64,000 nt of DNA, from IMG/VR virus record IMGVR_UViG_3300009177_000031, positions 1-64,000 of that record; one strand, 5' to 3'. Under the pieces are notes generated by a model that saw only the letters and a list, made by a program, of their open reading frames with translations, was not told the origin of the DNA and searched no databases. This document shows, piece by piece, positions 12,268-30,973 of the stretch. A program made the translations under genes and the position numbers. Source of the stretch: a virus. Numbering within the stretch: the first letter of the stretch is position 1; each line of letters starts with the position of its first letter.

Positions 12268-12698
12268 GGTTCCTCGTCAAGCTTCAGGCGATCCTGTCGG
12301 AAGACAACGATCAGCTGCAACGCTACCTGGACTTCAATCAGGTGGTTGATGACACGCTTCCGACGACGCAAGACGGTGGCGTGTTCACGCTCGCTGCGCT
12401 TGCGACGCAGCAAGTGCTGTTTCCAAAGGTGACGAACGGCAAGTACCTCGCCATCGTCGTTTGGAGTGGCGAAGCGCAGTACCGCGTGAACAACATCGGT
12501 TCGCAGCTGTTGGGCATCAAGCCGAATCCAGCGACGACGCCGGATCCAAACCTGCCCTATCAGAAGACGGCGCAACCAGGACTCGTCTTCTGCGGACCGA
12601 TCAGCGTTTCAGCGCCGCTCACCGCGCTGTGGCTCGTCAACCCCTCGTCGACGACTCCTGCGCGTGTGCAGGTCGCGATCGTCGGTGAAGCTGCATAA
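12264..12698 (+). CDS. Beta-rich hypothetical protein, 144 aa
   Basis: Starts at GTG 12264 overlapping the previous stop. After a helical start (FLVKLQAILSED), the sequence is strand-rich with many Thr, Val, Pro (YLAIVVWSGEAQYRVNN, VFCGPISVSAPLTALWLVNP), ending VQVAIVGEAA. The composition is like that of virion decoration or base proteins seen later in the genome. It marks the entry into the head module. Confidence 0.55.
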   Translation: MRFLVKLQAILSEDNDQLQRYLDFNQVVDDTLPTTQDGGVFTLAALATQQVLFPKVTNGKYLAIVVWSGEAQYRVNNIGSQLLGIKPNPATTPDPNLPYQKTAQPGLVFCGPISVSAPLTALWLVNPSSTTPARVQVAIVGEAA

Positions 12699-12711
12699 CA
12701 AGGAGTCGATC

Positions 12712-14291: not shown

Positions 14292-16097
14292 ATGGCGCTT
14301 GTCGATCAGCACGGGCGAGAAGTCTCCGTCATGCCGGTGGATGCACCGGTATCGGAGCAAATCCAGAAGGCAGTCACAGCTGCAACGGAGGAGCTGTTCG
14401 ACAAGATGGATCGCGTGCTGTCGATGTCAGCACCACCGCCACCGAGCGCAAACGAGCCGAAGGGCTGGTACACCGATCCGTTTGCGCTTCTCGACTCGCT
14501 CGGCATGGGCTACCGCGCGAACCCAAGCCACGTGACGTACGAGACGCTTCGTCAAATGACGGAGCGCGACACGTTGCTTGGTAGCATCATCAACACGCGC
14601 ATCGCGCAGATCAGCACGTTCTGTCGCGAGCAAGAGAACAAGTACAGCGTCGGCAACCTGGTGCGTTTGAAGGGCGCCGATCGGCACAAGCGACGTCTGA
14701 CGAACGGTGAGAAGGATCGCAAGAAGAAGATCGAAGCCTACGTCGAGAACATGGGTGGCGAGCGCAACGTCACGCGCGACAAGTTTGGCAACGCGGTGAA
14801 GAAGCTCGTGCGCGACACGCTCTCGTACGATCAGGCGAACATCGAGAATCACTTCACGCGCGGTGGTGACCTGCACCAATCGCTCGTGCTCGACGCGACG
14901 ACGATTCGCATCGCCGATCAGACGAAGACGAACCCTCGCGGCATTCCGCTGAAGCCGTCCGACGAGAAGACGCACATCATGTACGCGCAGATCCTCAACG
15001 GAGAGATCGTGCGCGAGTTCACGCCTCGCGAGCTGGCGTTCCCAATTCGCAATCCGCGCTCGAACCTCAAGGTCGGTGGCTACGGCTTTCCAGAGCCGCA
15101 GCTCCTGATCCAAACCGTCACCGCCCACATTTGGGCTGAGGAGTGGAACCGCAAAGCGTTCTCGCAGGGCTCGACGATCAAGGGTGTCCTCAACATGCGA
15201 GGCAACATCGATCGTCAGAAGTACGACAACTTCAAGCGTCAGTGGACCACGCAGGTTGGTGGCATCACAAACGCGTGGAAGACGCCCATCATCAACAGCG
15301 ACGGCATCGACTTCGTTCCGATGCAGATGTCGAACACGGAGATGGGCTACCAGATGTGGATCGAGTATCTGGTCAAGATCGCGTGCGCCATCTACCAGAT
15401 GGACCCGACCGAGATCAACTTCGACCTGCGCGGTGGCAGTGGTACCGGTCAACAGCCGACGTTCGTCTCGTCAAACGAGGCGCAACAGAAGATGTCGCGC
15501 GACCGCGGTCTGCGCCCGCTGCTTCGCTTCTTCGAGGATCTGTTCAACCAGCACATCATCGATCGCATCGATCCTGACTTCGAGCTGGCGTTTGTCGGTC
15601 TCGACGCGAAGACGGAAGCGGAAGCGGTCGAGCTACGTCAGAAGCAAGGCCAAACGCACCTGACCATCAACGAGGTGCGCGCGCTCGAAGATCTGGATCC
15701 GATTCCTGGTGGCGACGTCATCATGAATCCGACGTACACCGGCTACCTGCTACAGCAACAGCAAATGCAAATGCAGGGTGGCGCTGGTGGCGGTGGTGGT
15801 GGAATGCCTGGCATGCCTGGTGGGCAGCAACAGCAGCAACCGCCAGAGCAACCGTACGCGAATCGGTTTGGACACGCTGGTTCGCCACCGACGGACGGTG
15901 CGAAGGCCGGCGCGAAGAACCTGCAATCGATGTCGCACAACAAGCCGCAGCAAGACGACGTGCACGACGAAGACGACGACATCCGCATCCTGCGGCGTGA
16001 CGATTGGTCATCGAGCGTTCACGCATCGGTGCGTGACAACGACCTGCGTAAGAGCGAGCGGAACGCGGTGGCGGACTTCTTCGAGATCGACCTGTAA
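14292..16097 (+). CDS. Portal protein
   Basis: 601 residues, the usual size for a portal. It would form the dodecameric ring at the head vertex through which DNA is packaged and to which the neck attaches. Visible portal features are RDTLLGSIINTRIAQIS near the start, VRDTLSYDQANIE, PRELAFPIRNPRSN, the crown-helix run, PIINSDGIDFVPMQ, AIYQMDPTEINF, and the EAQQKMSRDRGLRPLLRFFEDLFN helix. The C-terminus is Gln/Gly-rich (about residues 490-520) and probably disordered. The start is ATG 14292 with AGGAG upstream. No terminase is found directly upstream, so it must lie outside the window. Confidence 0.92.
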   Translation: MALVDQHGREVSVMPVDAPVSEQIQKAVTAATEELFDKMDRVLSMSAPPPPSANEPKGWYTDPFALLDSLGMGYRANPSHVTYETLRQMTERDTLLGSIINTRIAQISTFCREQENKYSVGNLVRLKGADRHKRRLTNGEKDRKKKIEAYVENMGGERNVTRDKFGNAVKKLVRDTLSYDQANIENHFTRGGDLHQSLVLDATTIRIADQTKTNPRGIPLKPSDEKTHIMYAQILNGEIVREFTPRELAFPIRNPRSNLKVGGYGFPEPQLLIQTVTAHIWAEEWNRKAFSQGSTIKGVLNMRGNIDRQKYDNFKRQWTTQVGGITNAWKTPIINSDGIDFVPMQMSNTEMGYQMWIEYLVKIACAIYQMDPTEINFDLRGGSGTGQQPTFVSSNEAQQKMSRDRGLRPLLRFFEDLFNQHIIDRIDPDFELAFVGLDAKTEAEAVELRQKQGQTHLTINEVRALEDLDPIPGGDVIMNPTYTGYLLQQQQMQMQGGAGGGGGGMPGMPGGQQQQQPPEQPYANRFGHAGSPPTDGAKAGAKNLQSMSHNKPQQDDVHDEDDDIRILRRDDWSSSVHASVRDNDLRKSERNAVADFFEIDL

Positions 16098-16101
16098 GGC
16101 G

Positions 16102-18633
16102 ATGCAGCTCATCTTCAAAGCGACGAACGTCAAGCATCCGGGTAGCCGCGGTGGGCAATTCTGGATCGACGACAAGGGGCAAGCTCGCTACGACGAGAAG
16201 CCGACGGAGCAGAAGCGTCCGCACAAGTACCTCGCAATCGTCACGCTGTCGGACGGCACCGAGAAGCGCATCGAGCCAAACGACGACGAGCTTGACGAAT
16301 ACGGTCAGGTGATCGGTGGTCAGGCGAAGATTCGCGAGATCATCAACCGCGCACTGTTCGGTGAGTACGGCTTCAAGCCAAACGGAACCTTCTGGCAGAA
16401 GAAGGGCATCCTCATCGAGTACAAGACGCGCACGACAACGCGCGGCAAGACGGAAGTCGACGCGATCCAGCGTCACCAAGGCTACACGTCGTTCGAGTTC
16501 CGTGATTCGTCCGTGTCGCGCGCGTACGGCGCAGAGCTTCCGAAGAAGATCACGCAGCACTACGTCGATCCGAAGGACGTCACGTCGAAGCACGAACCGC
16601 TTCCGTCGAAGGAGAAGATCGAGCTTCCTGAAGGCGCGACGTCGGATCAACCGCCGATCGAAGAGATGAGCATCCACACCGTGCCGAAGCGGTTGCCGAG
16701 CACGCTGACGGCGATTGGCGAGAAGCTGAAGGACAACGAGAACCCAATCGCAATCGCCGATGCGTACCTCGATGCGACGTTCCACGCGCGCAAGCCGAGT
16801 CAGGCGAAGACGGAAGCCGGACAGACCAAGGCGCGCGCAGAGCGCGAAGGTCAGTTCAACGAAGTCATCGGTCATCGCAAGATCGAGCGGCTACCGATTT
16901 GGGCAATCGCGAAGTACGACTCGCCAGCGCAATTGCAGCAAGAGCTGTCGCGCGATGGTGGACGTCCGCTCACGACGCTCATCACGCTCGGCGTTTGGGA
17001 TGAGAACAACAAGAGCAAGCGCGTTCGTGAACAGCTCATAGCGGAGTGGTCAGGCTTCTTGCGCCGCTGGTCGCAGCGCTTCGCGAGCGTGTACGCGAGC
17101 ACCGATTCGTACCGCAAGTTCGACAAGCTCGAAGGTGGGAGCAAGGCTGCGCGCGATTGGATGCACGATCGCCAGCGTGACCTGTTCAACGAAGGTGTCG
17201 CCGTGTTGCTGGACGAGGCGAACAAGTACCAGGCGAACGACGAGCCGGCCGGACCCGACAGCCGATTCGATCTGAAGGTCACGAACGCGATCAAGAACCA
17301 CCTGGAGAAGAAGGCGAAGCAGGCCGCAGTCGAGGTGCACGGCGCGACGTACTCCGAGGATTTGGCCGAAGAGGAAGCGTTCAGCCCACCGCGCATGCTC
17401 ACGCCGCGCGAGCAATTCGAGCTGCGTCACTTCGAGCCGCAAGCGATCGAGATTCTCAATTGGGCGACGTCAACGCTCAAACCAGAGCAACGTGCGGCGT
17501 TCAAGTCGCGTTTGTGGATCGACGACTACGAGAAGCATCCTGACGCATCAGAGGAGCGCGTTTGGAACGAGCGACGTGCCGAGCGTATGCAGAAGCACGG
17601 TGAGTCGAACCTGCATTGGGGACGTCCGTGGATTCGCTCTGGCGACAGCGGCACCGTGCAGGCGATGAGCGACATGCTTGGTGACATCGAAGTGAAGCTG
17701 CGCGGTGGTAAAGGCATCGCGAAGCTTCGCACGCTGAAGCCGCAGCATCAGATGTACTACCTGGAGAAGTGGTTCAACGAAGCGCAGGAGCACGTTCTCA
17801 ATCAGCTGAAGACGAAGGGCGGCGGTCTTTCGTCTGAAGGCAGGGTAGTCGAGCGCTGGCTGCGTTTGGAAGAGAAGCTCGCGCACGTGAACACGAAGGA
17901 GATCACGGACCGCGTGCAGCACAAGACGGTGCAAATGCCGCTGAAGCCGGCTGCGCCGATCGTCGAGCACAATCGCGCTCACGAGAACCCGTCCGTCACG
18001 TTCTTCAAGCAGCCTGGAACGAACCGCGAGCTGGCCGAGCGTCTCGGCATCCTCGGCGATCTCGATCTGCCCATCGCGCTGAAGAACGTGAACCTTCCGA
18101 AGCAATACGAAGAGAAGCTGAAGCGCGTCGAGGACTACCATCGGCGTTTGCAATCGAACCTGAAGCACGTTGGCGATCTTGGTGTGCTTCGCGACGAAGC
18201 GCATGCGGCGATGGAGCGTCACCGCAACATGGGCTCGTGGTACCACTCGCCGAGCGGTTCGATGGAGTGGCATGAGGACAACGGCGTGGTTGCTCTACAC
18301 GAAGCGTTGCTGAAGCTGCACAAGACGAAGGGCGAAGACCAAGCCGCTGTCACCGCGTTTACGAACGCCGCAAACGCGCTCGGCAAAGAGCATCCGATGG
18401 TGCAGGACTACGCGCGACGTTTGGCGACGCTCGGCATGGATCCACCGACGAGCACTGATCTCGCAGCGTGGAAGGCTCGCTCACATTCGGCGTATCGCGA
18501 GCACGCGAACCGGTTGCACCTGATCGAGTTCGCCCAAGAGCAACGCAACGCGAAGAAGTCGATCCGCGATTTGCGTGATGCCTTCAAGAAGTGCATCGGT
18601 GCGTACGACGATCTCAGGAAGGCGTTCGTGTAA
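16102..18633 (+). CDS. Large head-module protein with N-terminal GSRGGQFW module and sigma-70-like region
   Basis: 843 residues from ATG 16102, four bases after the portal stop. Residues 13-34 carry HPGSRGGQFWIDDKG, the shared module. Residues about 320-410 resemble sigma-70 region 2: helical FLRRWSQRFASVY, then DLFNEGVAVLLDEANKY (Asp360 onward) and RFDLKVTNAIKNHLEKK. A later LKPEQRAAFKSRL near 480 recalls region 4. The rest is long, helical and charged. It may be a virion-packaged regulator or an assembly protein. The sigma resemblance is by eye and needs a profile comparison. The stop TAA overlaps the next ATG by one base. Confidence 0.6.
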   Translation: MQLIFKATNVKHPGSRGGQFWIDDKGQARYDEKPTEQKRPHKYLAIVTLSDGTEKRIEPNDDELDEYGQVIGGQAKIREIINRALFGEYGFKPNGTFWQKKGILIEYKTRTTTRGKTEVDAIQRHQGYTSFEFRDSSVSRAYGAELPKKITQHYVDPKDVTSKHEPLPSKEKIELPEGATSDQPPIEEMSIHTVPKRLPSTLTAIGEKLKDNENPIAIADAYLDATFHARKPSQAKTEAGQTKARAEREGQFNEVIGHRKIERLPIWAIAKYDSPAQLQQELSRDGGRPLTTLITLGVWDENNKSKRVREQLIAEWSGFLRRWSQRFASVYASTDSYRKFDKLEGGSKAARDWMHDRQRDLFNEGVAVLLDEANKYQANDEPAGPDSRFDLKVTNAIKNHLEKKAKQAAVEVHGATYSEDLAEEEAFSPPRMLTPREQFELRHFEPQAIEILNWATSTLKPEQRAAFKSRLWIDDYEKHPDASEERVWNERRAERMQKHGESNLHWGRPWIRSGDSGTVQAMSDMLGDIEVKLRGGKGIAKLRTLKPQHQMYYLEKWFNEAQEHVLNQLKTKGGGLSSEGRVVERWLRLEEKLAHVNTKEITDRVQHKTVQMPLKPAAPIVEHNRAHENPSVTFFKQPGTNRELAERLGILGDLDLPIALKNVNLPKQYEEKLKRVEDYHRRLQSNLKHVGDLGVLRDEAHAAMERHRNMGSWYHSPSGSMEWHEDNGVVALHEALLKLHKTKGEDQAAVTAFTNAANALGKEHPMVQDYARRLATLGMDPPTSTDLAAWKARSHSAYREHANRLHLIEFAQEQRNAKKSIRDLRDAFKKCIGAYDDLRKAFV

Positions 18634-20858
18634 TGCAGGTCATCCTCAGCGGCCACACGGTGCGCGCCGATTTGGAAGCAACGCCAATCGGCGCATTCGA
18701 CGTCATTCGTGACGACGTGCGCATGATCTCCACGGTGAAGCCGGTCGAGCGCATCTTCATCGAGCGCACCGAGACCGGCTATCGCGGCGTGCTGTACTCG
18801 AACGAGAAGCCGTTCCTGTTCGCGCTGAACGGCAACGGTTTCACCGCGAAGCCGATTGCGCAGGATGCGACGGTGTTCGCGTACTGCGACCGTTTGCAGG
18901 ACGAGGAGCGCGACCTGACGATGCGCCTTGATCAAGAGCGCGCAGACGCGGACATGGTGGATGTGAATCGTGTGATGTTCGAGCGCGACTCGAACCTGAC
19001 CGATGATGCAGCTGTGGCTCGCGAAGACGCGTCGCCTGCGACGCTGAAGGTGTGGGGACCGTCAGTCGACATCGCCGATCCAATCGAGCGCGTTCCTGGT
19101 GCGTATCGCAAGATGCGCCAGGGTGGATCGTCACTCGAAGGCAAGCGCAACAACGGCGTTTGCGGTGGCGGCATCGTGATGAAGGATGGGAAGGTGCTTC
19201 TCGTCAAGCCGCGTGGTGGATGGGGTGGCTACGATTGGACGTTCCCGAAGGGCTACCCGGCCGCAATCGACAACAACCATTTGGAGCAAACGGCGGTGCG
19301 CGAGGTGTGCGAGGAGACCGGCTACCGCGTCTTCGCCAATCGCTTCATCGGTCGCTTCTCGCACAACGATGGTGGTGTTTGCGACTACTTCTATTGCGAT
19401 GTCGACAACTCGAAGGAAGCCGGCACGCCGGATCCGCACGAGACGTCGGCGATCAAGTGGTGTTCGCTGGTCGAAGCGTTGGAGCTTCTCAACGATGACG
19501 TCGACGTGAAGATCCTGGCGCAAGCGAACAACCTGCTACCGCAATTGATCATCAAGTCGGAGGGCCACACCGGAACGATGGTGGCGCTGCATCTTCCGAC
19601 GGACATCGCAAAGAAGATCGCACTGAAGGGCGGTGAGGACCCTGCAAAGCTGCACATCACGCTCGCGTACCTCGGCAAAGGACTCAGCGAGCAACAGAAG
19701 AAAACCGCCGCTTCTGTGGTGCGCAGGTTTGCAGAGTCGATCGTCGATGGCTTGAAGGTGACGCTCGGCGGTGTCGGTCGCTTCAGTGCGAGCGGCACGA
19801 CGGAGGGGCGTGACGTTATCTACCTGTCGGTCGATTCGCCATCGCTCACGCGCGTTCGTCCAGAGCTGGCGAACATGCTGCGCGAGGCAGGCTTCGACTT
19901 CGACGTGCAGCACGGCTTCATTCCGCACGTGACGCTCGCGTACGTCGACAAGGACGAGAAGACGCCGATCAATCGCGTGGAGCCGATTGAGATCAAGTTC
20001 GACACGATCTCACTCACGATCGCGAACAAGCAGATGACGTTTCCGCTGAAGCTGTCGAAGCAGAACCAAGAGTTCTACGACGTGGGCCGGCGCAACTACG
20101 AAGCGCTGATGAAGTGGCGCGTCGATAAGCTGGAGAAGATGTACGGCGTCAGGTTGCCGATCAAGCCGCAGGAGTCGGCGACGTTCGTGCGTTTGGACAA
20201 GAGCCTCGATTACGAGCCAGTGATGGTGAAGGCGTTGCCGCGCATGAACAGTGACCAACGCGACGCGAAGAACAAGAAAGTCGGCGTGAAGCCGCCTGGC
20301 GCAGCGAAGAAGCAAGCCGGTGCGACCGGCAAGACGCGCTACACGTATCCGGCCGAGCAAGCAAACGCGAAGCCTGGACAGCCGCAACAGCCTGGTGGGC
20401 AACCGCAGCAACCTGGTGCGCCTGGACAGCCGCAGCAAGGTCAGGATCAGGTGCTTCCGCATCCTGACACGCCGCCGCCGCAACCCGAGCAAGCTCCGAT
20501 TGCAGCCGAGCATCCTGACAAACCGCCGCAGAACGATCCGCGTGGTCCCAATCCGCAAGAGCCGCAGCAACCGAAGCACACGATCAACATCGGCGAGCTG
20601 TGCGCAGCGCTCGGTGTTCAGCGCTCGGTGCTTCAGCAAATCGTTGCGCGCATGCAAAAGAACTTCGGCGCTGACGCGCGGAAGAAGTTCGTGTCGTTCA
20701 TGAGTGTGCAGCTGAAGCAGTTTGCGGACGAGCACGGTTTGGAAGGCGACTACTTCGGTTTGCTGTTCGATGTGCTCACCGGAAAGGTGCAGGAAGGTCA
20801 GCCTGCATCGCAACAGCAACCGCAACCGCAGGGAGGAAGCCGTGGCGCTAAAGCGTGA
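18633..20858 (+). CDS. Nudix hydrolase fused to 2H phosphoesterase
   Basis: 741 residues. Residues about 174-300 are a Nudix domain: GGGIVMKDGKVLLVKPRG, then WTFPKGYP, then the Nudix helix TAVREVCEETGY (Arg223, Glu224, Glu227, Glu228). The first Glu of the Nudix box is replaced by Asn in an extended loop. Residues about 315-440 are a 2H phosphoesterase (2'-5' RNA ligase-like) with HITLAYLG (His341, Thr343) and HVTLAYV (His432, Thr434). The N-terminus (1-140) is unknown. The C-terminus is Pro/Gln-rich (about 570-650) then a helical domain. Nudix enzymes hydrolyse nucleoside diphosphate derivatives; 2H enzymes open cyclic phosphates and include the anti-CBASS protein Acb1. The position between head genes suggests virion association. 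The substrate is unknown. Confidence 0.82.
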   Translation: MQVILSGHTVRADLEATPIGAFDVIRDDVRMISTVKPVERIFIERTETGYRGVLYSNEKPFLFALNGNGFTAKPIAQDATVFAYCDRLQDEERDLTMRLDQERADADMVDVNRVMFERDSNLTDDAAVAREDASPATLKVWGPSVDIADPIERVPGAYRKMRQGGSSLEGKRNNGVCGGGIVMKDGKVLLVKPRGGWGGYDWTFPKGYPAAIDNNHLEQTAVREVCEETGYRVFANRFIGRFSHNDGGVCDYFYCDVDNSKEAGTPDPHETSAIKWCSLVEALELLNDDVDVKILAQANNLLPQLIIKSEGHTGTMVALHLPTDIAKKIALKGGEDPAKLHITLAYLGKGLSEQQKKTAASVVRRFAESIVDGLKVTLGGVGRFSASGTTEGRDVIYLSVDSPSLTRVRPELANMLREAGFDFDVQHGFIPHVTLAYVDKDEKTPINRVEPIEIKFDTISLTIANKQMTFPLKLSKQNQEFYDVGRRNYEALMKWRVDKLEKMYGVRLPIKPQESATFVRLDKSLDYEPVMVKALPRMNSDQRDAKNKKVGVKPPGAAKKQAGATGKTRYTYPAEQANAKPGQPQQPGGQPQQPGAPGQPQQGQDQVLPHPDTPPPQPEQAPIAAEHPDKPPQNDPRGPNPQEPQQPKHTINIGELCAALGVQRSVLQQIVARMQKNFGADARKKFVSFMSVQLKQFADEHGLEGDYFGLLFDVLTGKVQEGQPASQQQPQPQGGSRGAKA

Positions 20859-23208
20859 TCTGATGAAAGCAACGGTGCAGAACCCTGGCTCGCGCGGTGG
20901 CAAGTTCTGGCGTGACGAGAAGGGCGTCATTCACTACGGCGAGAAGCCGGTGGAGGACAAGATCCAGGAGCGCGCGAAGTCGATCCTCGATCAAGTGAAG
21001 CGTCGCGCGCGTGGCAAGGGTGGCGAGATTGCGCTGTCGAAGCAGGATCTGGAGAAGCTGCTTGCGTCAGGCAAGTACGCGCTCGTGAGTGCAGGGCCGA
21101 ATCCAAACCACGCTGACGACAAGAATCTCAGCCAAGACGAAATCAAACGTCGCCACAAACAGCTCGGCGAAGACTTGGTCGATGCTGGCTACATGTTCAC
21201 GAACGTGACCGGTCACTACGGTGGAACCGAAGATTCGTACCTCGTGATGATTCACGATGCGGATCGTAAAGACGTCGACGAGCTTGGGAAGAAGTACCAC
21301 CAAGATTCGATCATCTACGGTGAAGCTGGGCACCAGGAGATGCGCTTCACTTTTGGTGAGCACGTTGGTACGATGCACACCGGTACGGGTTACGAAATCA
21401 AGAACGACGCTGACGACTTCTTCACGATCGTTCGCCATCCAGACGGAAGCTCGACGAAGTTTGCTCTCAACTTCGATTGGGACAAACGAGAGATTGCAAA
21501 AGCGCTCAAGCTGTTGTTCAAAGCAGAGAAGCCGGAAGAGAAGAAGCCGGCGAAAGACGAGAAGGGCGCTGGCTTCAACGAATCGATGGGTGAGCAACCG
21601 GTGGATGCACCGGTCGGATTCGGACCACGCATCGTCAAGTTGCCGATGCACCCAAACGCGGATGTGAATCCGAAGGTGCACGAGGCGAAGATGGAAGAGA
21701 AGAAGCAGCGCGAGAAGTCGCAACCGAAGCTCGCGCTGAAGAAGGGTGCTGGCTGGAACGATAAGGACGAGCGGATGTACCAGCACATCAAGGACAGCGG
21801 TGCGAGCGAGAAGATCGCTGCGGCTACCGTCAACAAGCAACGACGCAAGGAGGGCCGCGTGAAGAAGTCGAAGCCGAGTGTCACGCTGATCAAGGGCGTG
21901 CGTCCAGGTGCGAAGGGCGCAGGCTCACGCGGTGGCAAGATCGCGTACCACACTAAGAGCGGCAAGCCTGTGTATCAGTCGCAGGTGAAGAAGCAAGCGC
22001 CGACGTTTTCACAGATGGGCCACAACTGGACGAAGCACGCCGAGAACGCGGAGAAGAAGATCGCCGACTACAAGGCGGATCCGAACTCGAACAACCCGTC
22101 GCACTATCGTTCGTACGTCGGCGAAGCCGCAGGTAACCATGCGACCGCTGCGAAGCAGCATCTCGTCGCCGCGTTCTACCAGCATCACGCCGGTGACTCG
22201 GACAAGGCGAAGGAACACATGGCAGCGGCGGAACATCACGCCGAGCACGCGAAGAAGCACATGGAGACGTCGGCGAAGCACAAAGGTGACTACGGCGTCA
22301 AACATCATCACCAAACCGCGGTGCGTGCGATGAAGTGGTTCGATGCGAACCACGCATCGACACACGAAGCGGTGCACTACGGTCGCCATCCTGATCCTCA
22401 CATCGAATCGATTGCGCAAGACGCGCAGGATTCCGGCCGTCACGAGGAAGCCAAACGCATTCGTCACTCACAAGACGACGTCAAGAAGGCGCTCACGCCT
22501 AGCAACAACAACGGAGGAAACATGTCGAAGAACGAAGTCGCGGATCTGTTCAAGAGCGAGCTGGGCGAGAGCAACGCCAAGCCCATCACCACGTGCGTGC
22601 ACTGCAAGCACGACCTGACGCGAGACGATCTCAAGAAGGGTCTCGGCACGCACTTCGTCGCAGACGACAACGACAACCCGCACAGCGGTGGCGATGGTTC
22701 TGTCGAGGTCGTTCGCGGCGTTCCTGGCGCGAAGGAGAACGACGAAATCGCGCCGCTCTTGAAGGGTCTCAAGGGCAAGGAGGCCGGCGACAACGAGGAG
22801 TATCCGATCAGCAAGAGCGAGATGGCGACGATGGGCATGAGCGTCGACGGTCTCGATGATGGCTGGTACACGATCACCAAGAGCGAGATGCAGAAGCAGG
22901 CACCGGAGCATCTCGCGTACCTCGTCGATCGCAAGGAGCGCGTCGCGAAGGCGATCAAGCCGACGGTCAACGCGCTGAAGAAGGGCGAGGAGCCGATTCG
23001 CAAGGGTGACACGTCGCGCTCGACGACGGACGGACCGCACGGCTACTCGCCGCGCGCTGGCGGTGTTGTCGGTCCGAGCGGTGAATCGCTCGTGCAGTGG
23101 AGCGAAGGCTCGGACAAGCAGGTCGCCGAGTACATCGAGAAGTCCGGTCACGGCTACGGTCCTGGCAACGACGAGCCGATCCGCACGCAAGGTCGGGGGA
23201 CCTTCTAA
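20842..23208 (+). CDS. Mosaic head-module protein with two GSRGGK modules
   Basis: 788 residues from GTG 20842 (GGAGGAAG upstream, overlapping the Nudix-2H gene by 17 nt). Residues 15-36 carry PGSRGGKFWRDEKG. Residues about 70-220 are an alpha/beta domain (YALVSAGPNPN, GEDLVDAGYMF, DSYLVMIHDADR) that resembles the DUF3293 type. GWNDKDERMYQHIKDSGASE near 310 is a short helical motif known from other phage and bacterial proteins. A second module (residues 361-378, GSRGGK then HTKSGKPVY) leads to a His/Ala-rich helical region. The last 230 residues form a separate part (Cys pair TCVHCKHD) with its own internal start at 22522. Probably a multi-part virion protein. Confidence 0.65.
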   Translation: MALKRDLMKATVQNPGSRGGKFWRDEKGVIHYGEKPVEDKIQERAKSILDQVKRRARGKGGEIALSKQDLEKLLASGKYALVSAGPNPNHADDKNLSQDEIKRRHKQLGEDLVDAGYMFTNVTGHYGGTEDSYLVMIHDADRKDVDELGKKYHQDSIIYGEAGHQEMRFTFGEHVGTMHTGTGYEIKNDADDFFTIVRHPDGSSTKFALNFDWDKREIAKALKLLFKAEKPEEKKPAKDEKGAGFNESMGEQPVDAPVGFGPRIVKLPMHPNADVNPKVHEAKMEEKKQREKSQPKLALKKGAGWNDKDERMYQHIKDSGASEKIAAATVNKQRRKEGRVKKSKPSVTLIKGVRPGAKGAGSRGGKIAYHTKSGKPVYQSQVKKQAPTFSQMGHNWTKHAENAEKKIADYKADPNSNNPSHYRSYVGEAAGNHATAAKQHLVAAFYQHHAGDSDKAKEHMAAAEHHAEHAKKHMETSAKHKGDYGVKHHHQTAVRAMKWFDANHASTHEAVHYGRHPDPHIESIAQDAQDSGRHEEAKRIRHSQDDVKKALTPSNNNGGNMSKNEVADLFKSELGESNAKPITTCVHCKHDLTRDDLKKGLGTHFVADDNDNPHSGGDGSVEVVRGVPGAKENDEIAPLLKGLKGKEAGDNEEYPISKSEMATMGMSVDGLDDGWYTITKSEMQKQAPEHLAYLVDRKERVAKAIKPTVNALKKGEEPIRKGDTSRSTTDGPHGYSPRAGGVVGPSGESLVQWSEGSDKQVAEYIEKSGHGYGPGNDEPIRTQGRGTF
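22522..23208 (+). CDS. Possible internally initiated C-terminal product of the mosaic protein
   Basis: An in-frame ATG at 22522 is preceded by ACGGAGGAAAC, one of the strongest Shine-Dalgarno sites in the window. It lies exactly where the His-rich part ends and an Asn-rich linker (SNNNGGN) begins. Initiation here would give 228 residues beginning MSKNEVADLFKSELG, with CVHCKHD and a C-terminal GYGPGNDEPIRTQG stretch. Either two genes became fused in frame, or both long and short forms are made. The site is visible; use is inferred. Confidence 0.4.
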   Translation: MSKNEVADLFKSELGESNAKPITTCVHCKHDLTRDDLKKGLGTHFVADDNDNPHSGGDGSVEVVRGVPGAKENDEIAPLLKGLKGKEAGDNEEYPISKSEMATMGMSVDGLDDGWYTITKSEMQKQAPEHLAYLVDRKERVAKAIKPTVNALKKGEEPIRKGDTSRSTTDGPHGYSPRAGGVVGPSGESLVQWSEGSDKQVAEYIEKSGHGYGPGNDEPIRTQGRGTF

Positions 23209-23420
23209 TGTCGGTTGCTGCACTCTCTGAACGAGCTGTGCAGCAACCGATGGCTGCACGAAGCAAGCAGAGCATCGATTACAAACGCGGCGTTTGTCCG
23301 TGTTGTTCGCAACCGATGTTGGTGATGGCAAGCCAGCCTGAAGCACCGTGCGTCGATTGCTACGTAGAAGAGAAGCCGAAGCTTGCAATCGGAACGCAGC
23401 CCATTCCGGTTGACCGCTAG
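23208..23420 (+). CDS. Small zinc-ribbon protein, 70 aa
   Basis: The ATG overlaps the previous stop (TAATG). It contains GVCPCCSQPM and PCVDCYVEE, two CxxC knuckles about 22 residues apart, a standard zinc ribbon. It is followed by a short Pro-containing tail. It lies between the mosaic protein and the SNF2 helicase, and may be a partner of either. Function unknown. Confidence 0.65.
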   Translation: MSVAALSERAVQQPMAARSKQSIDYKRGVCPCCSQPMLVMASQPEAPCVDCYVEEKPKLAIGTQPIPVDR

Positions 23421-23434
23421 CTCGTGAGGAGCAG

Positions 23435-26400
23435 ATGAACGACGACATCGATTTTGACGCGTTGTATGAAGGTCTCAACGTCGACACCGACTTGATGATC
23501 AAAGCGACGCTTCGCGTGCCTGCGCGTCCGATGAAGAACGCAGTCGCGCAATCGCTGTCGTTGGACCTGAAGGCTTTGTACAAGGCGCGCGCAGAAGCGT
23601 TGATGGCGGACATCACCGACGTGATGAACGAAGAGGAGCCGATTGCAAAGGCCGATCTGATCTTCGCGAATGGGCGCGTTTTGTTCAAAGCTTTGACAGG
23701 GCAACCGAAGCCACCACCTTCGGCACCGAAGCTTGAAACGCATCAGCAACCAGGTCACGCAAACGCACCGAAGACGCCGAGCGCTGGCGCAGGTGCGAAG
23801 TCGACGATGCCTGGTGGACAGCGTCGTCTCACAGCGTCCGGCTACATCCACGTCGAGACTCCTGGCTCGCGTGGTGGAAAGTTCTGGCGCGACGAGAAAG
23901 GCAACGTGCGCTACGGCGACAAGCCGAGCGGCACCTTCCAAGTGGAAGCGCCACCGCATGATGTCGTGGAGCACTACAGGAAGTATTACGCGCCGCAGCC
24001 GTTTGCAGCGCACAACCAGATGGACATGCACGAAGCTCTCATGCAGAGCGAAGTGCTCACGGAAGCCGATCACGGCTTCATGGACTTCTGGCACGAGAAC
24101 TACGATGAGGTTCTGAGCCTCATCAGTGGTGGCAAGCTCACGCGCAAGGACGTCGAGAAGGCCGGGGGTTTGCAGAACTGTTCGTTCCAGATCAACGGAC
24201 GTCCGTGCAGCGTGGGTGAGGCGATCGAGGAGTTCTTCAAGGCGAACGTCGGTGCGTTTGTCGGTGACGAAACGTACGGCGACATTGAGACGCCGGAAGA
24301 CATCCTCGAAGCGGTGCGCGGCTTGATGGACCGCTACCGCAAAGCGCTGCACGAAGATCCGAAGGTGCAAGCGCTCGCGCAAGCCGCAGCGGAGAAGCGC
24401 GAAGCCGAGCGCAACGCGTTCTACCTGACGTGCGAGCACACCGCGGAGGAGTTCTCGCCGCTCGCCGGCGATCTTGTCACGAAGGAGGACTTCGAGGATC
24501 TGACGTTCAAAGCGACCGCTGCAATGGCGCAGATGGGTCTCATCGAGCGCGGTGGCAAAGGCAGCGTTGCTCAGCGCCGCATGCGCGGTGCAATCGTTCC
24601 GAAGTCGAGCATGCTGTTGCAGGACAAGCGCAACATGGGTTCGCTTTGGAAGGACGATCAGCTCGAACGTCTCAGCGCGCCGCAGCTGATGGCGGTGCAC
24701 ATTGCAGTCGATGCGCAGGAGTCGTTCTCGAAGGACAACACCTACGAGTACGAGCCTGGTGCGCCAAACGCGAACCGCGACCGCGTGTTCGATCTCATTT
24801 GCAGCAAGCTCGGCGTCGACCCGGACGATCAGGTCGCGAAGAACACGCTGAAGCGCAAGCTGGAGAAGACGACGGAAGCGACGCTGCGCGCGATGACGAA
24901 CTACAACACCGGACAGGATCCGATGTTCGCGCTCGCGATGACGAAGCGCATCTGTGACATCTACAAGAACGCCGATTGGCTAGAAGACCACAAGAAGAAG
25001 GTCGCCGAGGAGCAATCGCGCATTCAGGAGATCCTCGCTGCGCAAGAGGACACGTCGTTCGAGCCTCCACCGTCGATGGTAAACGGCGTTTGGAACGGCA
25101 AGACGCTGAAGGATGCGAACAAGCCAGAGAAGGGCGTTTGGGCTCCGTTCGAGTACCAGAAGAAGTACATCAACTGGATGCTCAAGGCGAAGCGCGGTGT
25201 GATTGCAGCCGATGCCGGCATGGGCAAGACGCCGATCGTGATCGCGTTCCGTGAGCTGCTTGCATCGCAGGGCAAAGACGTTCCTGCCATTTGCTTCCTA
25301 CCACCGTCGTTGATGGAGCAGTGGCCTGCGGCGATCCAGAAGTTCGCGCCAGAGAACGCCGACAAGATCCTCAACCTCAGTGGTCTCTCGTTGGAGGAGC
25401 GCAAGGTCGCTTTGCAAAGCGACATGGCGAAGAAGGCTCGCTACATCTTCATCAGCACCGGCACGCTCACCGGTGACGTGCCGGATCCGAACTCGACGGA
25501 AGACGAGAACGATGGCACCGGTGGTTCTGACCACGAGATGGTCGAGATCCTGAAGAACCTCGAAGGCGCGGTGTTCATCGACGAAGCGCACCAAGGCGGT
25601 TACAAGAAAGCCGGCAACACGCGCCACGAGATTGCAAAGGCGGTGATGGAGGGTCGCGAGTACGCGTTCGGCATGACGGCTACGCCGATGCCAAACGATC
25701 CGATGGACGTCTATCACCTCGCGAACCTGTTTGCGCCTGGCAGCGTTGGTGACGCCGAGCTGTGGGCTGGTCGCACCGCTGGTGTGGCGTGGAACGAAGA
25801 GGAAGGTCGTTATGAGGTGTCGAACCCGGAGCACCTTGCAGAGCTGAACCAGCGCCTCAAGCCGTTCGTGTTCTACAAGAGCGTCAACGATCCAGACGTC
25901 GTGAAGGACATGGGCAAGGGTCTTCCGCAGAAGACCGGTGTGCACGAAGACTCAGCGATGCACGAGGGTGAGGGCGATCTGAATCTGTCAGGTCACTCGA
26001 ACGCGCAGAACGGTTTGTCGCAGCACGACTACTTCAAAGAGGGTGGTGTCATTGACACCATGATCGAGCTGCGCATCGCGCGTTTGGTGCGCGAGCGAGC
26101 GGAGAAGATTGCAAACGGCGAAGTGAATCCTTCGACCGGTGAGCCGTACAAGGCGTACCACCCCAAGTTCCTTCAGCTGATGGCTGGCGGCATGAAGATC
26201 ATGCTGCAACGGCAAGCGTCGATCTCGCCAGCGCTCATCGATCACACGTATCGCAAGTCCGATGGTGGCGTTGCGCACTCGCCGAAGATCAAGGCGCTGT
26301 GCGATGACATCGTCGCGCACTTCTCAAACGGTGGTCAGGGTGGTGACGACGCGAAGCCGCTCGTCGTGTTCTCATCGTTCCCTGGCAAAGCGTTTCCGCT

Positions 26401-27937
26401 CGTGCGCAAAGCGCTCGCCGAACGCGGTGTGGATCCGTCGCTCATCGAGACGATTGCAGGCGACGTCGCTCCGACGGAGCGCGGCTACATGCAGGACAAG
26501 CTGAACAAGGGCCACGCGAAGGTGCTCCTTGTCGGCACGATGTCAGGTGGCGCCGGTCTGAACCTTCAGGAAGCGGCGAACAAGACGCTGTTCCTCGATG
26601 AGCCGTGGAACCCGGCTGCAAAGCGTCAGGCGATTGGTCGCGTTTGGCGCACCGGACAGAACAACGTCGTGCACGAGAAGACGTACCGTTCGGTTGGTAC
26701 GTACGACTCGGTGGTGGAGCAGAAGATCGCAGGCAAGCAAGCGATGGTCGCTGCGCTTCTCGGAAAGGACATGCCGACGGAGGCATCGTTCAAGCCGGAC
26801 ACGTCGATCAAGGAGCTGCTTGGTCGCGTGAAGGGCACCGACTACACCGAGGATCAGATCAAAGCGATCATGGAGAACTCGAAGAACTACGATTTGGCTT
26901 CGAGTGAGCACAAGCAAGCCGAACAGCTTTTGCAATCGATGCACGATGAGGATTGGAAGGAGAAGGCCGGTGGTCAGGGCTTCGGTGGTGGCGTTTCCGC
27001 AACGCTGACCGACAAGGACTTCGAGCCGAACAAGGAAGCGCAGAAGACGCTCAAGAACAAGGGCGCGCACAAACTCACCGAAGCGTTCGATGAGAAGGAG
27101 TTCCGCGGCAAGTGGGAGATGGATCGCGATAAGCGCCGCTCGAAGCAGAACTACGAGATGGCGAACCTGATGGCTGACGTGTACAGCCAGCAAGGGAACA
27201 AAGAGAAAGCTGACGAGTACAAGCGTCGCGCTGACGAGCTTGCCGAGAAGTACCCTGAACTCGGTGGTGCAAAGGACGGTGGTGCGAAGAAGAAGGGCAA
27301 GGACGAGAAGCCGAAGGCCGAGAAGAAGGGCGACGAGAAGAAGCCTGCGAAGGGTGGCGACAAGAAGCAATCGAAGGAAGGTGGCGAGAGCGAGCAAACG
27401 AAACCGCCACCGCGCGCGACTGCAACGGTTGCTGACGCCGAGCACGAGCTGAAGCAAAAGGCGAAGGCGCAGGACGCGCACACCAAGACGCAAACGGAGA
27501 AGGTGAAGCAGCGCAAGCCGCAAGAGACGACGAACAAGCTCGGTGGCAATCCTGACGAGCAAGAGGCGCCGGTCAAGCCGGCGACCTTGAAGCAGCCGGT
27601 GGTGAAGCGCAACGAAGCGCTCGGTGTCGACTTCCACTCGAAGGACAATCCGTTCCCGGAGAACGGACGCAAGGTGAAGGGCACCGACGTCTCGAACGCG
27701 GAAGCGAACTACGTACTCGATGTGCTGCACAAAGAGAAGAAGCTGAAGTCGTGGGACGAGTTCATCACGACGCACATCAAGCCGGTTTGGGACGAAGAGG
27801 ACGGTCGCAATCCGTTCTCGATGAAGGCTGCGCACGAGTACGTCGGCAAGATCGTCGACGCGATCTCGAATCAAGGCTTGATGACGCTCAACGAGCCGAT
27901 GAAGGCTGCGAAGAAGCAGACCAAGAAGGAGAAGTAG
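23435..27937 (+). CDS. SNF2-family helicase/translocase in the head module
   Basis: 1500 residues. The helicase core spans about 565-1110. Motif I is DAGMGKT (Lys598), motif II is FIDEAHQGG (Asp716-His719), motif III is MTATPMP (747-753). Motif V is GGAGLNLQEA and motif VI is QAIGRVWRTGQ (Gln1065, Arg1069, Arg1072), the SNF2 pattern. It would translocate on duplex DNA using ATP. The N-terminus has the PGSRGGKFWRDEKG module (143-164), then a helical domain. The C-terminus is a long Lys/Glu/Gly-rich linker followed by a small domain. Unlike replication helicases it sits among head genes, as in P1 DarB-type injected proteins. Virion packaging is inferred. Confidence 0.88.
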   Translation: MNDDIDFDALYEGLNVDTDLMIKATLRVPARPMKNAVAQSLSLDLKALYKARAEALMADITDVMNEEEPIAKADLIFANGRVLFKALTGQPKPPPSAPKLETHQQPGHANAPKTPSAGAGAKSTMPGGQRRLTASGYIHVETPGSRGGKFWRDEKGNVRYGDKPSGTFQVEAPPHDVVEHYRKYYAPQPFAAHNQMDMHEALMQSEVLTEADHGFMDFWHENYDEVLSLISGGKLTRKDVEKAGGLQNCSFQINGRPCSVGEAIEEFFKANVGAFVGDETYGDIETPEDILEAVRGLMDRYRKALHEDPKVQALAQAAAEKREAERNAFYLTCEHTAEEFSPLAGDLVTKEDFEDLTFKATAAMAQMGLIERGGKGSVAQRRMRGAIVPKSSMLLQDKRNMGSLWKDDQLERLSAPQLMAVHIAVDAQESFSKDNTYEYEPGAPNANRDRVFDLICSKLGVDPDDQVAKNTLKRKLEKTTEATLRAMTNYNTGQDPMFALAMTKRICDIYKNADWLEDHKKKVAEEQSRIQEILAAQEDTSFEPPPSMVNGVWNGKTLKDANKPEKGVWAPFEYQKKYINWMLKAKRGVIAADAGMGKTPIVIAFRELLASQGKDVPAICFLPPSLMEQWPAAIQKFAPENADKILNLSGLSLEERKVALQSDMAKKARYIFISTGTLTGDVPDPNSTEDENDGTGGSDHEMVEILKNLEGAVFIDEAHQGGYKKAGNTRHEIAKAVMEGREYAFGMTATPMPNDPMDVYHLANLFAPGSVGDAELWAGRTAGVAWNEEEGRYEVSNPEHLAELNQRLKPFVFYKSVNDPDVVKDMGKGLPQKTGVHEDSAMHEGEGDLNLSGHSNAQNGLSQHDYFKEGGVIDTMIELRIARLVRERAEKIANGEVNPSTGEPYKAYHPKFLQLMAGGMKIMLQRQASISPALIDHTYRKSDGGVAHSPKIKALCDDIVAHFSNGGQGGDDAKPLVVFSSFPGKAFPLVRKALAERGVDPSLIETIAGDVAPTERGYMQDKLNKGHAKVLLVGTMSGGAGLNLQEAANKTLFLDEPWNPAAKRQAIGRVWRTGQNNVVHEKTYRSVGTYDSVVEQKIAGKQAMVAALLGKDMPTEASFKPDTSIKELLGRVKGTDYTEDQIKAIMENSKNYDLASSEHKQAEQLLQSMHDEDWKEKAGGQGFGGGVSATLTDKDFEPNKEAQKTLKNKGAHKLTEAFDEKEFRGKWEMDRDKRRSKQNYEMANLMADVYSQQGNKEKADEYKRRADELAEKYPELGGAKDGGAKKKGKDEKPKAEKKGDEKKPAKGGDKKQSKEGGESEQTKPPPRATATVADAEHELKQKAKAQDAHTKTQTEKVKQRKPQETTNKLGGNPDEQEAPVKPATLKQPVVKRNEALGVDFHSKDNPFPENGRKVKGTDVSNAEANYVLDVLHKEKKLKSWDEFITTHIKPVWDEEDGRNPFSMKAAHEYVGKIVDAISNQGLMTLNEPMKAAKKQTKKEK

Positions 27938-27940
27938 GCG

Positions 27941-28405
27941 ATGCCAAATCGCGAGAAGTCGAACCACGTCGTGTTCCGCACCGTCAATCGCGGTGACGGA
28001 AAGAAGGGCATCGAGGCGCACACGCCTGAGAAGGTGCTTCCGATCCACGACAAGAAGGAACTCGAAGCGCAGCTGAAGCACTACGCGAAGTTTCTTCTAT
28101 CGCTGACGACAGGAAGTAACGTCGCTGCGCGTCGGAAGTATGTCGAGCTGATTCGTCCGGCGCTGCGCTACTACTGCAAGAAGTTCAACGTGCAGGCACC
28201 GAAGTGGCTCGCAAACGACGACTACTACACCAAGACGATGGACACCGCGACGAAGCAGCAGATGTTCGGCATGCGCCCGCTTCGCATCGGGGAGTTTCAG
28301 AAGCTGAAGCCGGTCGAAGGTGTCGAGAGCGTTTCGTATCCAGGCAAGGAGCCGGATGCGGAGGAGCAAGGAGCAAAGGCAAATGGGCAAGCCCCTCAGC
28401 GATAA
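27941..28405 (+). CDS. Hypothetical head-module protein, 154 aa
   Basis: The ATG follows the helicase stop by three bases. The protein is basic at the start (REKSNHVVFRTVNRG), has helical segments ELEAQLKHYAKFLL and RRKYVELIRPALRYYCKKF, then LKPVEGVESVSYPG and an acidic end. It overlaps the minor head gene by 23 nt. A structural or accessory head role follows from position only. Confidence 0.6.
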   Translation: MPNREKSNHVVFRTVNRGDGKKGIEAHTPEKVLPIHDKKELEAQLKHYAKFLLSLTTGSNVAARRKYVELIRPALRYYCKKFNVQAPKWLANDDYYTKTMDTATKQQMFGMRPLRIGEFQKLKPVEGVESVSYPGKEPDAEEQGAKANGQAPQR

Positions 28406-29336
28406 GCAACGAGAGAAGATCAGCAAGCTGATTGCTGACCATCACCTCGCGTTTGCCGTCGAGGTGCTTGGGCCTGACGCGATTCCGCGCGCTGAGCTTC
28501 AGCGTTTGCAGCGTGAAGGCATCCTGAAGCAGCACGAAGTCGAGCACGCGCAGGTTGCGATTCCAGCTGCGCACATGCTTGGCAAGCAAGCAGCGTCAAA
28601 CGCGCAGCTCGCGCGCATGCCGCCAGAGCAGTTCTGGCAGTTCATCGAGCACGCACCGCCGCAGTTCAGCAAGCACGATCTCGACGCGATGAACGCGGCG
28701 AAAGCTGTGGTTGGTCGTTTGATCGTCAACCTCGGTGTCGGTTTGCTCAACGAGTTCGAGAGTGCCAGCCATGAAGAAGCAGCAAAGCTTCGTCAGGAAG
28801 CGTTGGGGGTTGTACAACACGAGGTTGCGCTCGGCATCGCACGACGTTCTGCGAAGGAGAAAATCCAGCGTCGCTTGCGAGACAAGCTCGGCGAGTCGGA
28901 ACGCAATTGGGCGCTTGTGGTACAAACCGAACTCCACAACGCGCAGGAGTACGGCAAGGCGCTCGGACTCGGCGCTGACGGGCGAGACCCGATCGTCTAC
29001 AAGCGGCCACGTCCTGACGCTTGTCGTTTCTGCAAGCTCCTGTACCTCGTCGATGGTGTACGTCCTCGTCTCTTCCGTCTCTCAGTGCTCGTGAAGAACG
29101 GCACGAACTACGGAAAGCGTGCGCGACGTCCTTCGTTCCGTGGTGCAGGCGCAACGGAATGGAAGGCGACCGTCGGCTGCGTGCATCCTGGTTGTCAGTG
29201 CGAGATGCACCAGATGCCGGAAGGCATGACGTTCGACAAGCAGGGGAAGCTCGTTGCGTCTGTGCGCAAGAGCATCGAGCCTGACGTTCTCACCGCCGAT
29301 CTTCGGAAGCTCATCGGTCACCGGTGCGTCGCATGA
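28383..29336 (+). CDS. Minor head protein, Mu gpF / SPP1 gp7-like
   Basis: 317 residues. Helical N-terminal 200 residues lead into the conserved C-terminal signature. WALVVQTELHNAQEYG matches the family RTE helix, RPRPDACRFCKLLY provides the Asp-x-Cys-x-x-Cys part, and GCVHPGCQCEM is the His/Cys end of the motif. These proteins join the portal vertex or scaffold and are injected or needed for head morphogenesis. Its presence after the portal is normal, though here separated from it by 12 kb of extra genes. Its stop overlaps the kinase-like gene as ATGA, so the two are coupled. Confidence 0.8.
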   Translation: MGKPLSDKQREKISKLIADHHLAFAVEVLGPDAIPRAELQRLQREGILKQHEVEHAQVAIPAAHMLGKQAASNAQLARMPPEQFWQFIEHAPPQFSKHDLDAMNAAKAVVGRLIVNLGVGLLNEFESASHEEAAKLRQEALGVVQHEVALGIARRSAKEKIQRRLRDKLGESERNWALVVQTELHNAQEYGKALGLGADGRDPIVYKRPRPDACRFCKLLYLVDGVRPRLFRLSVLVKNGTNYGKRARRPSFRGAGATEWKATVGCVHPGCQCEMHQMPEGMTFDKQGKLVASVRKSIEPDVLTADLRKLIGHRCVA

Positions 29337-30202
29337 CTCAGCTCGAAACCATCGTGAAGCGGATGAAGCCGGTCTCGATCAAGATGATCGCGGAAGGCAA
29401 CGTCGGCGCACGTCTGGTGACGTATCCGAACGGCGCGCAGGTCGTGATGAAGATCTGTTCGTCTGTAACGACGAAGAACCAGCGCACGACGCAACGCGGT
29501 CTGCCCACCGAGACAGAACCGAAGCGCGAAGTCGCGTTCTATCGGCTGTGCAAGTTGCTCGGTTGGGACATCGTGCCGGAAACCGTTTTGGGCGAATTCG
29601 CCGGTTTCCCTGCGTCGTTTCAGCAATACATGACGGCGGCGAAGCTCTACGACGTGGAGCCGCGCCTGCGGAACCCGGGCAAGAACAGGGTGGCGTGGCA
29701 GATCGCGCTGCGCGAAACCTTGCGAGACAAGGTTCCATTTGAAGACACGCTGCGCCTGACAGTGCTAGATTTCCTGGCAGGGTCGCGCGATCGTCATGCT
29801 GCTAATTATGGTGTTCGTTTGGATGTGTCTGCCAACAAAGCTCGTTGGCGACTCATCGGTTGGGACAACGGTTGCTCGTTTGGTTTGACGCAAGCGTTGT
29901 ACAAATGCGTCGCTCACAAGTGGGTCTTCCGTTACGCGTTCGATCTGTCGACTGTTTGGGATGACCTTCGACGCATTCGACGTTCAGAACTCGCTTCTGC
30001 ACTGAGTGGCCTGATCGACGACGAAGCTATCGACCACGTTTGGCATCGAGTTCAGTTTGTACTCACGTTTCCACATCGCATGCCGTGGAAGACGCTTTCG
30101 CAAGGGCATGACGACGGTGACTCCTTTCCGTCGTACGCAGAATGGTTCAAACCGATGCTGGGCACCAAACCCTTCTACATCTTGCAAACGCAGGCGCTGT
30201 AG
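29333..30202 (+). CDS. HipA/PI3-4-kinase-like protein kinase-fold enzyme
   Basis: 289 residues. All core elements of the kinase fold are visible in order. VVMKICSS gives the ATP-binding Lys40, REVAFYRL the helix-C Glu66, and GFPASFQQYM is the hinge region. AGSRDRHAANYGV gives the catalytic Asp153 with Asn158, and RLIGWDNGCSFG the metal-binding Asp178. The D-R-H-x-x-N and D-N-G forms match the HipA/PI3-PI4-kinase branch rather than ordinary Ser/Thr kinases. Substrates of such enzymes include translation factors, lipids and proteins. It is coupled to the gpF-like gene and precedes the prohead protease, so virion delivery or capsid modification is plausible. Confidence 0.72.
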   Translation: MTQLETIVKRMKPVSIKMIAEGNVGARLVTYPNGAQVVMKICSSVTTKNQRTTQRGLPTETEPKREVAFYRLCKLLGWDIVPETVLGEFAGFPASFQQYMTAAKLYDVEPRLRNPGKNRVAWQIALRETLRDKVPFEDTLRLTVLDFLAGSRDRHAANYGVRLDVSANKARWRLIGWDNGCSFGLTQALYKCVAHKWVFRYAFDLSTVWDDLRRIRRSELASALSGLIDDEAIDHVWHRVQFVLTFPHRMPWKTLSQGHDDGDSFPSYAEWFKPMLGTKPFYILQTQAL

Positions 30203-30226: not shown

Positions 30227-30973
30227 ATGCGTGACAACGACCTTCTAGACGGCAAAGACGACTTCTTGATTTGGACGCCGAGCTGCGTCGAGATCATCAT
30301 GAAGGCTGGTGTCGACATCGAGCGCACGCGTCCAATCGGTGGAACGTGTTCGACCGAGCGTCTCGATCGCCAGGACGAGAAGGTGTTCGCGAAGGGACTC
30401 GACTTCAACGAGTTCGTGAACCACGGCTACTTCAACGACAACCACAAGCAGAACACGGCTGACATCCTCGGCTATCCGAACATGGCCGAGCTACGCAAGG
30501 GTCGTTGGTGGACCGAAGGCAACTTGCTTCTCGATTGGGAGCCTGCAAATCGTGTTTGGGCGCTCGCGAAAGCGCTCTCAAAGAGCACTGCGAAACGCAG
30601 GCTCGGCTTCTCGATCGAAGGCAAGGTAACGGAGCGCGGTTACGACAACCGCATCACGAAGGCGATCATTCGCCACGTCGCAATCACCAATTCGCCGGTG
30701 AACACCGATTGCACGTGGGACATTCTCGCGAAGGCGTTTGGCTCGATGGAGGAGCTGGAAGGTGCTTCGTTGCGTCGCGCGCTGAGCGCGGGTGCTTCGT
30801 CGCCGGGTTCCAGTGGAGGCGCAGCGCTCGCAGGTGGGCGTGTGGAGCGCAAGCCGATCGAGCTGACGTTCGACGAAGCGGTGAAGGTTCTTAAAGCGCA
30901 TCGTCCGCAGTACGCGTGGGGAACGTGCGAGCGGCTCGCTCGTGTGATTTTCAAACAAGAACGGAGGAACTGA
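30227..30973 (+). CDS. Prohead (capsid maturation) serine protease
   Basis: 248 residues. It would cleave the scaffold and capsid precursor after prohead assembly. FNEFVNHGYFNDNHKQ supplies the catalytic His73 region, GRWWTEGNL and LAKALSK follow, and RRLGFSIEGKV holds the nucleophile Ser129. AIIRHVAITNSPVN matches the usual strand after it. This is the HK97/S78-like arrangement. Residues 185-201 (ALSAG-x2-SP-x3-GG-x-AL) closely match a segment of the capsid protein, suggesting a self-cleavage site. The C-terminal 45 residues end in RPQYAWGTCERLAR. Start ATG 30227 with AGGAG. Confidence 0.8.
   Translation: MRDNDLLDGKDDFLIWTPSCVEIIMKAGVDIERTRPIGGTCSTERLDRQDEKVFAKGLDFNEFVNHGYFNDNHKQNTADILGYPNMAELRKGRWWTEGNLLLDWEPANRVWALAKALSKSTAKRRLGFSIEGKVTERGYDNRITKAIIRHVAITNSPVNTDCTWDILAKAFGSMEELEGASLRRALSAGASSPGSSGGAALAGGRVERKPIELTFDEAVKVLKAHRPQYAWGTCERLARVIFKQERRN

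Follow-up and report, generated by a model that had tools for sequence, protein, structure and literature searches.

Gene content of the portal–protease interval

The window analysed here covers positions 1 to 64,000 of a virus record of 88,309 bases (IMGVR_UViG_3300009177_000031), which comes from an uncultured tailed phage, and every gene called in this window lies on the + strand. Between its portal gene (w24) and its head maturation protease gene (w32) is an interval of 14.1 kb (16102-30202) that contains seven genes, w25 to w31, and one small open reading frame (ORF), all co-oriented. A short Gly-rich tag, in two related forms referred to as tag A and tag B, recurs in this region. The genes of the interval and its flanks are:

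12685..14280, + strand: w23, upstream of the portal gene; its C-terminal half bears tag A (13576) and an Ala/His-rich helical module
14292..16097, + strand: w24, portal of the SPO1 gp3.1 type (PF04860, 2.6e-21; phrog_12, 9.2e-53)
16102..18633, + strand: w25, a helical region resembling sigma-factor domain 2 (about residues 287-409), preceded by an N-terminal tag B (16138)
18633..20858, + strand: w26, N-terminal domain, Nudix domain, 2H phosphoesterase, a tag-like sequence and a conserved C-terminal domain
20842..23208, + strand: w27, mosaic protein with tag B, a S-adenosylmethionine (SAM) lyase domain, a small module, tag A with a His/Ala-rich module, and a Zn-ribbon C-terminus
~23208..23417, + strand: small Zn-ribbon-like ORF
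23435..27937, + strand: w28, N-terminal carrier region with tag B, SNF2 helicase, C-terminal tail
27941..28405, + strand: w29, small basic conserved head-core protein, with homologs at the equivalent place in relatives
28383..29336, + strand: w30, gpF/MuF-like minor head protein (C..C and HPxCxC motifs and gene context)
29333..30202, + strand: w31, SCO1664/PI3-4K-like kinase (TIGR03843; DRHxxN and DNG motifs)
30227..30973, + strand: w32, head maturation protease (phrog_1028, 1.4e-44)
32875-34275, + strand: major capsid protein, downstream of the protease

Gene w25 begins 4 nucleotides (nt) after the portal gene, w26 overlaps w25 by 1 nt, and w27 overlaps w26 by 17 nt. The small ORF then fills an apparent 226-nt gap ahead of w28, ending ~17 nt before it, and resembles a 55-amino-acid (aa) ORF at the equivalent place in a relative (L012 12115-12282). 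Further downstream, 3 nt separate w28 from w29, w30 overlaps w29 by 23 nt, w31 overlaps w30 by 4 nt, and the protease gene starts 24 nt after w31. The initial annotation of this DNA had described a 14-kb enzyme-rich block between portal and prohead protease, and the block is indeed there, co-oriented and tightly packed; the spacing it gave, overlapping or at most ~15 nt, is roughly correct if the small ORF, which it missed, is included. Its premise that portal and protease are adjacent elsewhere agrees with distances of 76 nt in Exiguobacterium phage vB_EalM-132 and 78 nt in Lysinibacillus phage LysYB1. Its labels of Nudix-2H, mosaic, SNF2, gpF-like and kinase were borne out, while the label sigma-like has moderate structural support and none from sequence profiles.

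Enzyme domains of the block

The enzyme domains look catalytically intact, judging from their active-site motifs. In w26, a Nudix domain (aa 181-294; PF00293, 3.7e-13) is followed by a 2H phosphoesterase domain (aa 339-444; PF13563, 6.2e-11), whose HITL and HVTL motifs are both intact, and by the tag-like KKQAGATGKTRYTYP at ~aa 563. A strict Nudix-box pattern gave no match in w26 because the first Glu position differs; the Nudix core REVCEETG was seen by eye. Identification of the 2H domain as Acb1, which acts against CBASS, was rejected, as its PF23474 score of 17.1 bits is under the cut-off of 27.

The SAM-lyase domain of w27 (aa 94-196; PF23780, 31.2 bits, E 2.5e-7, curated Pfam cut-off 28 bits) lies between tag B at 20884 and tag A at 21922. 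With the catalytic Glu and conserved Gln of SAM lyases as reference residues (PMC7877911, PMC12255297), the candidates in w27 are E130 (TEDSYLV) and Q154 (YHQDS), which align near E67/E68 and QD of the T3 SAMase; the position of the Glu is ambiguous by one residue. A PDB sequence search with the w27 N-terminus gave no match.

In w28, a carrier region (~aa 1-550) with tag B at 23861 precedes an SNF2 helicase (aa 574-1074; PF00176, 3.8e-15; PF00271, 2.8e-8) whose SNF2 motifs are intact and which had no match among cultured phages at E 1e-10. Assignment of w28 as DarB was also rejected, the DarB-like family match covering only the generic helicase C domain. The kinase w31 retains intact DRHxxN and DNG motifs, and its TIGR03843 match of 1.1e-8 is below the curated cut-off.

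For w25, searches of Pfam, NCBIfam and PDB sequences gave no sigma-factor match and no convincing profile match, and an hhalign comparison with sigma region 4 was weak (E 0.018, probability 2.6%). A full-length model had a mean predicted local distance difference test (pLDDT) score of 49.6 and an uninformative fold search; a model of aa 255-560 had a pLDDT of 63.6, and its best Foldseek match, at E 0.31, was not significant. When this second model was compared by VIA-align, sigma factors, aligned at ~aa 287-409, made up nearly all of the best 50 rows, the top one being a sigma factor with Z 8.3 and a root-mean-square deviation of 2.8 over 91 residues; Z values near 8.3 can reflect a common helical arrangement. 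A sigma-like fold is plausible for w25, and the protein might then act as a sigma factor.

A conserved core with variable enzyme domains

Comparison of gene order among relatives, proposed earlier as a check on whether the block is variable, shows that it is: the core order is kept, and enzyme domains are gained and lost. Blocks with the same core order measure 14.2 kb (G001), 17.8 kb (G025), 7.3 kb (L075) and 8.0 kb (L076). In G001, a 21 kb contig that is the nearest relative, the match to w27 begins at w27 residue 222, the tagged SAM-lyase module (w27 aa 1-221) being absent, and the w23 homolog is a 207-aa protein without the tagged half. In G025 (118 kb), the w26 N-terminal domain, tag B and a topoisomerase IB follow one another in a single 1858-aa protein; the topoisomerase replaces Nudix-2H, with parts of w26 and w27 encoded by ORFs of their own.

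The compact relatives are without w25, Nudix, 2H, SAM lyase and SNF2. L075 and L076 retain the N- and C-terminal parts of w26, the C-terminal part of w27, the tagged N-terminal carrier of w28, and w29, w30 and w31, and no significant Pfam enzyme domain was found in the proteins scanned from these two. In L072, L073, L075 and L076 the w28 carrier comes without an SNF2 domain; the carrier gene in L074 and L076 was placed by six-frame search. The conserved core, kept where enzyme domains are absent, thus comprises parts of w26, w27 and w28 together with w29, w30 and w31. Since this core is retained while the enzyme domains differ among relatives, the block combines core genes that are conserved with enzyme cargo that varies.

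Homologs of w29 occupy the equivalent place in G001, G025, L072, L073 and L076. For w30, no direct Pfam or PHROG profile match was obtained; the gpF/MuF assignment follows from its Cys/His motif, with C..C and HPxCxC invariant in an alignment across five phages, and from head-gene context, as its homologs adjoin head genes in Bacillus, Lysinibacillus, Bacteroides and Chryseobacterium phages. Another gene, w44 (40756-41271), lies in the tail region of the window, and its homologs adjoin the gpF-like gene in L072, L073, L075 and L076.

Among cultured phages, gpF-like and Nudix-like genes lie in the portal–protease gap of Bacteroides phage DAC22 (5.4 kb) and of Chryseobacterium phage MA9V-3 (13.0 kb). 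A near-DNA search for the block among cultured phages gave no match, and a portal search in GTDB genomes found none. In Burkholderia phage Bcep1, a query that carries Nudix matches within DNA annotated as portal protein (NC_005263.2, 12219-12524), which makes a fusion of portal and enzyme likely there.

A tag shared by putative cargo and head proteins

The two forms of the tag read PGSRGGKFWxDxxGxxxYG and GSRGGKxIGHTKSGKPIY, with five occurrences in four window proteins. These occurrences have residues in common that are encoded by partly different codons (synonymous changes), and therefore it is the protein sequence that is kept. Outside the window, tag B was found in unrelated phages: at the C-terminus of a portal (L060) and, in L058, on both a topoisomerase IB-pyrophosphatase and a 2116-aa ParB-SNF2 polyvalent protein. 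In the former (L058:5420-7210, G027), which has the tag near its N-terminus, the topoisomerase IB is joined to an inorganic pyrophosphatase of the polyvalent type. In G030, an SNF2 helicase with tag B (L059:14788-18222) is split by a LAGLIDADG (homing-endonuclease) intein-like insert. A second short motif, HxRRTKSGKxVxVxxH, recurs in large tagged proteins at points where one domain meets the next (L058:7207-13557, L062:1-2397).

In the searched contigs, tagged ORFs are on the strand of the portal gene and cluster near it: the range from -3 to +34 kb relative to this gene takes in 35 of 36 (17.6 expected) and, counted by contig, 17 of 18 (8.6 expected). The simulated probabilities of such clustering (0/200,000 per ORF; 3e-5 per contig) can serve as no more than a rough guide, because the range was set post hoc. 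One relaxed DNA pattern for the tag matched 13 stretches in viral contigs; cellular genomes totalling 257 Gb gave no match. A tblastn search of cultured phages with the tag only gave no match, possibly owing to masking of the short query, and the tag strings were not found in a literature search.

The tag could be a mere flexible or beta-hairpin linker that aids domain shuffling and has no role in packaging. It often marks the border between domains and connects ones that are unrelated, as a linker would, and we regard this as a real, if tentative, possibility. However, a linker would not readily account for position-specific conservation (PG.RGG..x..D..G...Y) despite synonymous changes, for clustering near portal genes, or for absence of the pattern from the cellular genomes searched. 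It is rather doubtful, at the other extreme, that the tag is a general capsid-loading (or ejection) element by which many unrelated tailed phages package exchangeable enzymes; a sigma-like protein and a SAM lyase would be among these, and host transcription and SAM would be their targets from the onset of infection.

Probable head carriers with exchangeable cargo

At the level of sequence, we find a conserved core, variable enzyme domains, common short tags and intact active-site motifs. Based on gene context, domain fusions and the tag, and by analogy with polyvalent proteins (PMC5512222), P1 Dar (PMC12810830) and T4 internal proteins (PMC12373910), we favor as fairly probable an arrangement in which the block encodes head-carrier proteins bearing exchangeable enzyme cargo that is injected with the DNA. 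The carriers, encoded beside the portal and probably internal to the capsid, would be w29, w30, w31, the N-terminal part of w28, the N- and C-terminal parts of w26 and the C-terminal part of w27. Fused to them or inserted beside them would be the exchangeable enzymes: SAM lyase, Nudix, 2H, SNF2 ATPase and sigma-like protein here, and topoisomerase IB in a relative. Via carriers, the tag or both, the block proteins may enter the prohead before the protease matures the head, and may exit the capsid together with the DNA. A linker role for the tag would be compatible with this scheme and would compete only with the tag's part in it.

Packaging and injection are what we infer from the genes; judging by family membership, the block enzymes may also have anti-defence roles. 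Early in infection, the injected proteins would disarm or reprogram the host. The SAM lyase could deplete SAM or SAM-AMP, countering restriction, BREX or type III CRISPR signalling; Nudix and 2H could target nucleotide signals or RNA; SNF2 could act on DNA-bound proteins; and the sigma-like protein could act on host RNA polymerase. The suggestion in the initial annotation of an injected effector set comparable in concept to the P1 Dar proteins is supported in part, by the variable block, the intact-looking motifs, and the fusions and tags that tie enzymes to head proteins, but the block is not solely effectors, much of it being conserved head core.

Several points weigh against carriage in the head. 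The scheme is read from the genes of a phage with no cultured close relative, and in large late operons numerous non-virion genes lie close to the portal. Neither the 2H nor the SNF2 domain could be assigned to a specific anti-defence family, Acb1 being below cut-off and DarB matching in its generic helicase part only. The tag-portal range is post hoc, G016 and G022 are near-identical, and tagged genes within one genome are not independent.

The block could instead be a tolerant site in a late operon, whose accessory enzymes are expressed late, stay unpackaged and work inside the cell that makes the phage, their targets being phage DNA, nucleotides or host signalling. Co-transcription alone would account for the orientation and spacing, but the in-frame fusion of enzymes to conserved head carriers, and the presence of the enzymes' tag on a portal C-terminus, make this explanation unlikely. 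That the whole set of block proteins serves structure or assembly (as minor head proteins, core or scaffold, connectors), with enzyme-like folds in structural or maturation roles, agrees with the core conserved even in compact relatives and with w30 as a typical head protein, but is quite improbable given that enzyme domains come and go and keep intact active-site motifs unneeded for a purely structural role.

If head carriage of exchangeable cargo is correct, the tag would offer an easy way to pick out virion-carried effectors from the sequences of never-cultured phages. It would serve among distant phages as the T4 internal-protein signal has served among T-even phages, and the choice of capsid cargo would become a testable question. 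Head carriage would also predict as cargo a SAM lyase, whose carriage in a virion our literature search did not find, and a sigma-like factor, likewise not found described as virion-carried in the literature searched.

In the rest of the genome, L003:8024-9184 and L003:9799-11943 match porphyrin/cobalamin biosynthesis families (CobS/CobT-like).

Comparison with known systems

The head genes resemble those of SPO1-type Herelleviridae, with homologous portal, protease and major capsid protein: w24 is ~42% identical to the SPO1 portal gp3.1, and both the protease and the major capsid protein have matching counterparts in vB_EalM-132 and LysYB1. In those phages, however, portal and protease are adjacent with no enzyme block between them, and the gpF-like gene, where present, is upstream of the portal.

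The w27 domain resembles the T3 SAM lyase and Svi3-3 (PMC7877911) and the SAM-AMP lyases (PMC12255297) in its above-cut-off PF23780 match and its candidate catalytic Glu and conserved Gln. Whereas the T3 enzyme is free and first-expressed, the w27 version forms one domain, with a tag, within a protein encoded in the head operon. Myxococcus phage Mx1 encodes a SAM-lyase-like 559-aa protein ahead of the tail sheath (L054:14128-15807) and a 1479-aa protein with GNAT, ART-PolyVal and NUDIX domains (L054:929-5368).

Like the T4 internal proteins Ip1-Ip3 (PMC12373910), which are injected counter-defence proteins carrying a short common packaging signal, the block proteins share a short sequence with a putative packaging role; the T4 signal is N-terminal, whereas the tag here is often internal. 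The P1 Dar system consists of DarA, DarB, DdrA, DdrB, Hdf and Ulx, with DarA and Hdf needed to package the others (PMC12810830), and has the helicase-type protein DarB among its cargo. The block may resemble it in having several proteins that would be packaged in the head, putative structural carriers that would load others, and a helicase-type protein as putative cargo. No PHROG match to DarA or Hdf was found in w22-w31. DarB combines a methyltransferase with an SNF2 helicase, whereas w28 has SNF2 but no methyltransferase domain matched in Pfam.

The concept itself has been set out before, under the name of phage polyvalent proteins (Iyer et al. 2017, PMC5512222), whereas the initial annotation had suggested a perhaps new anti-defence cargo system. 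In that paper, SNF2, 2H, Nudix, ParB and pyrophosphatase domains are encoded with portal-terminase head genes, and domains such as 2H, Nudix and SNF2 are fused to portal or MuF domains or packaged, with packaging and injection predicted. A targeted text search of the paper did not find the tag, and no polyvalent-specific Pfam domain was matched in w25-w31. The block likewise sits with packaging genes, between portal and protease, and likewise combines several activities per polypeptide, as in w26 (Nudix and 2H) and w27 (SAM lyase and modules); outside the window, the 2116-aa ParB and SNF2 protein of L058 does so too. The block differs in that most activities here are borne by individual ORFs, all in one orientation, which are attached to conserved head carriers.
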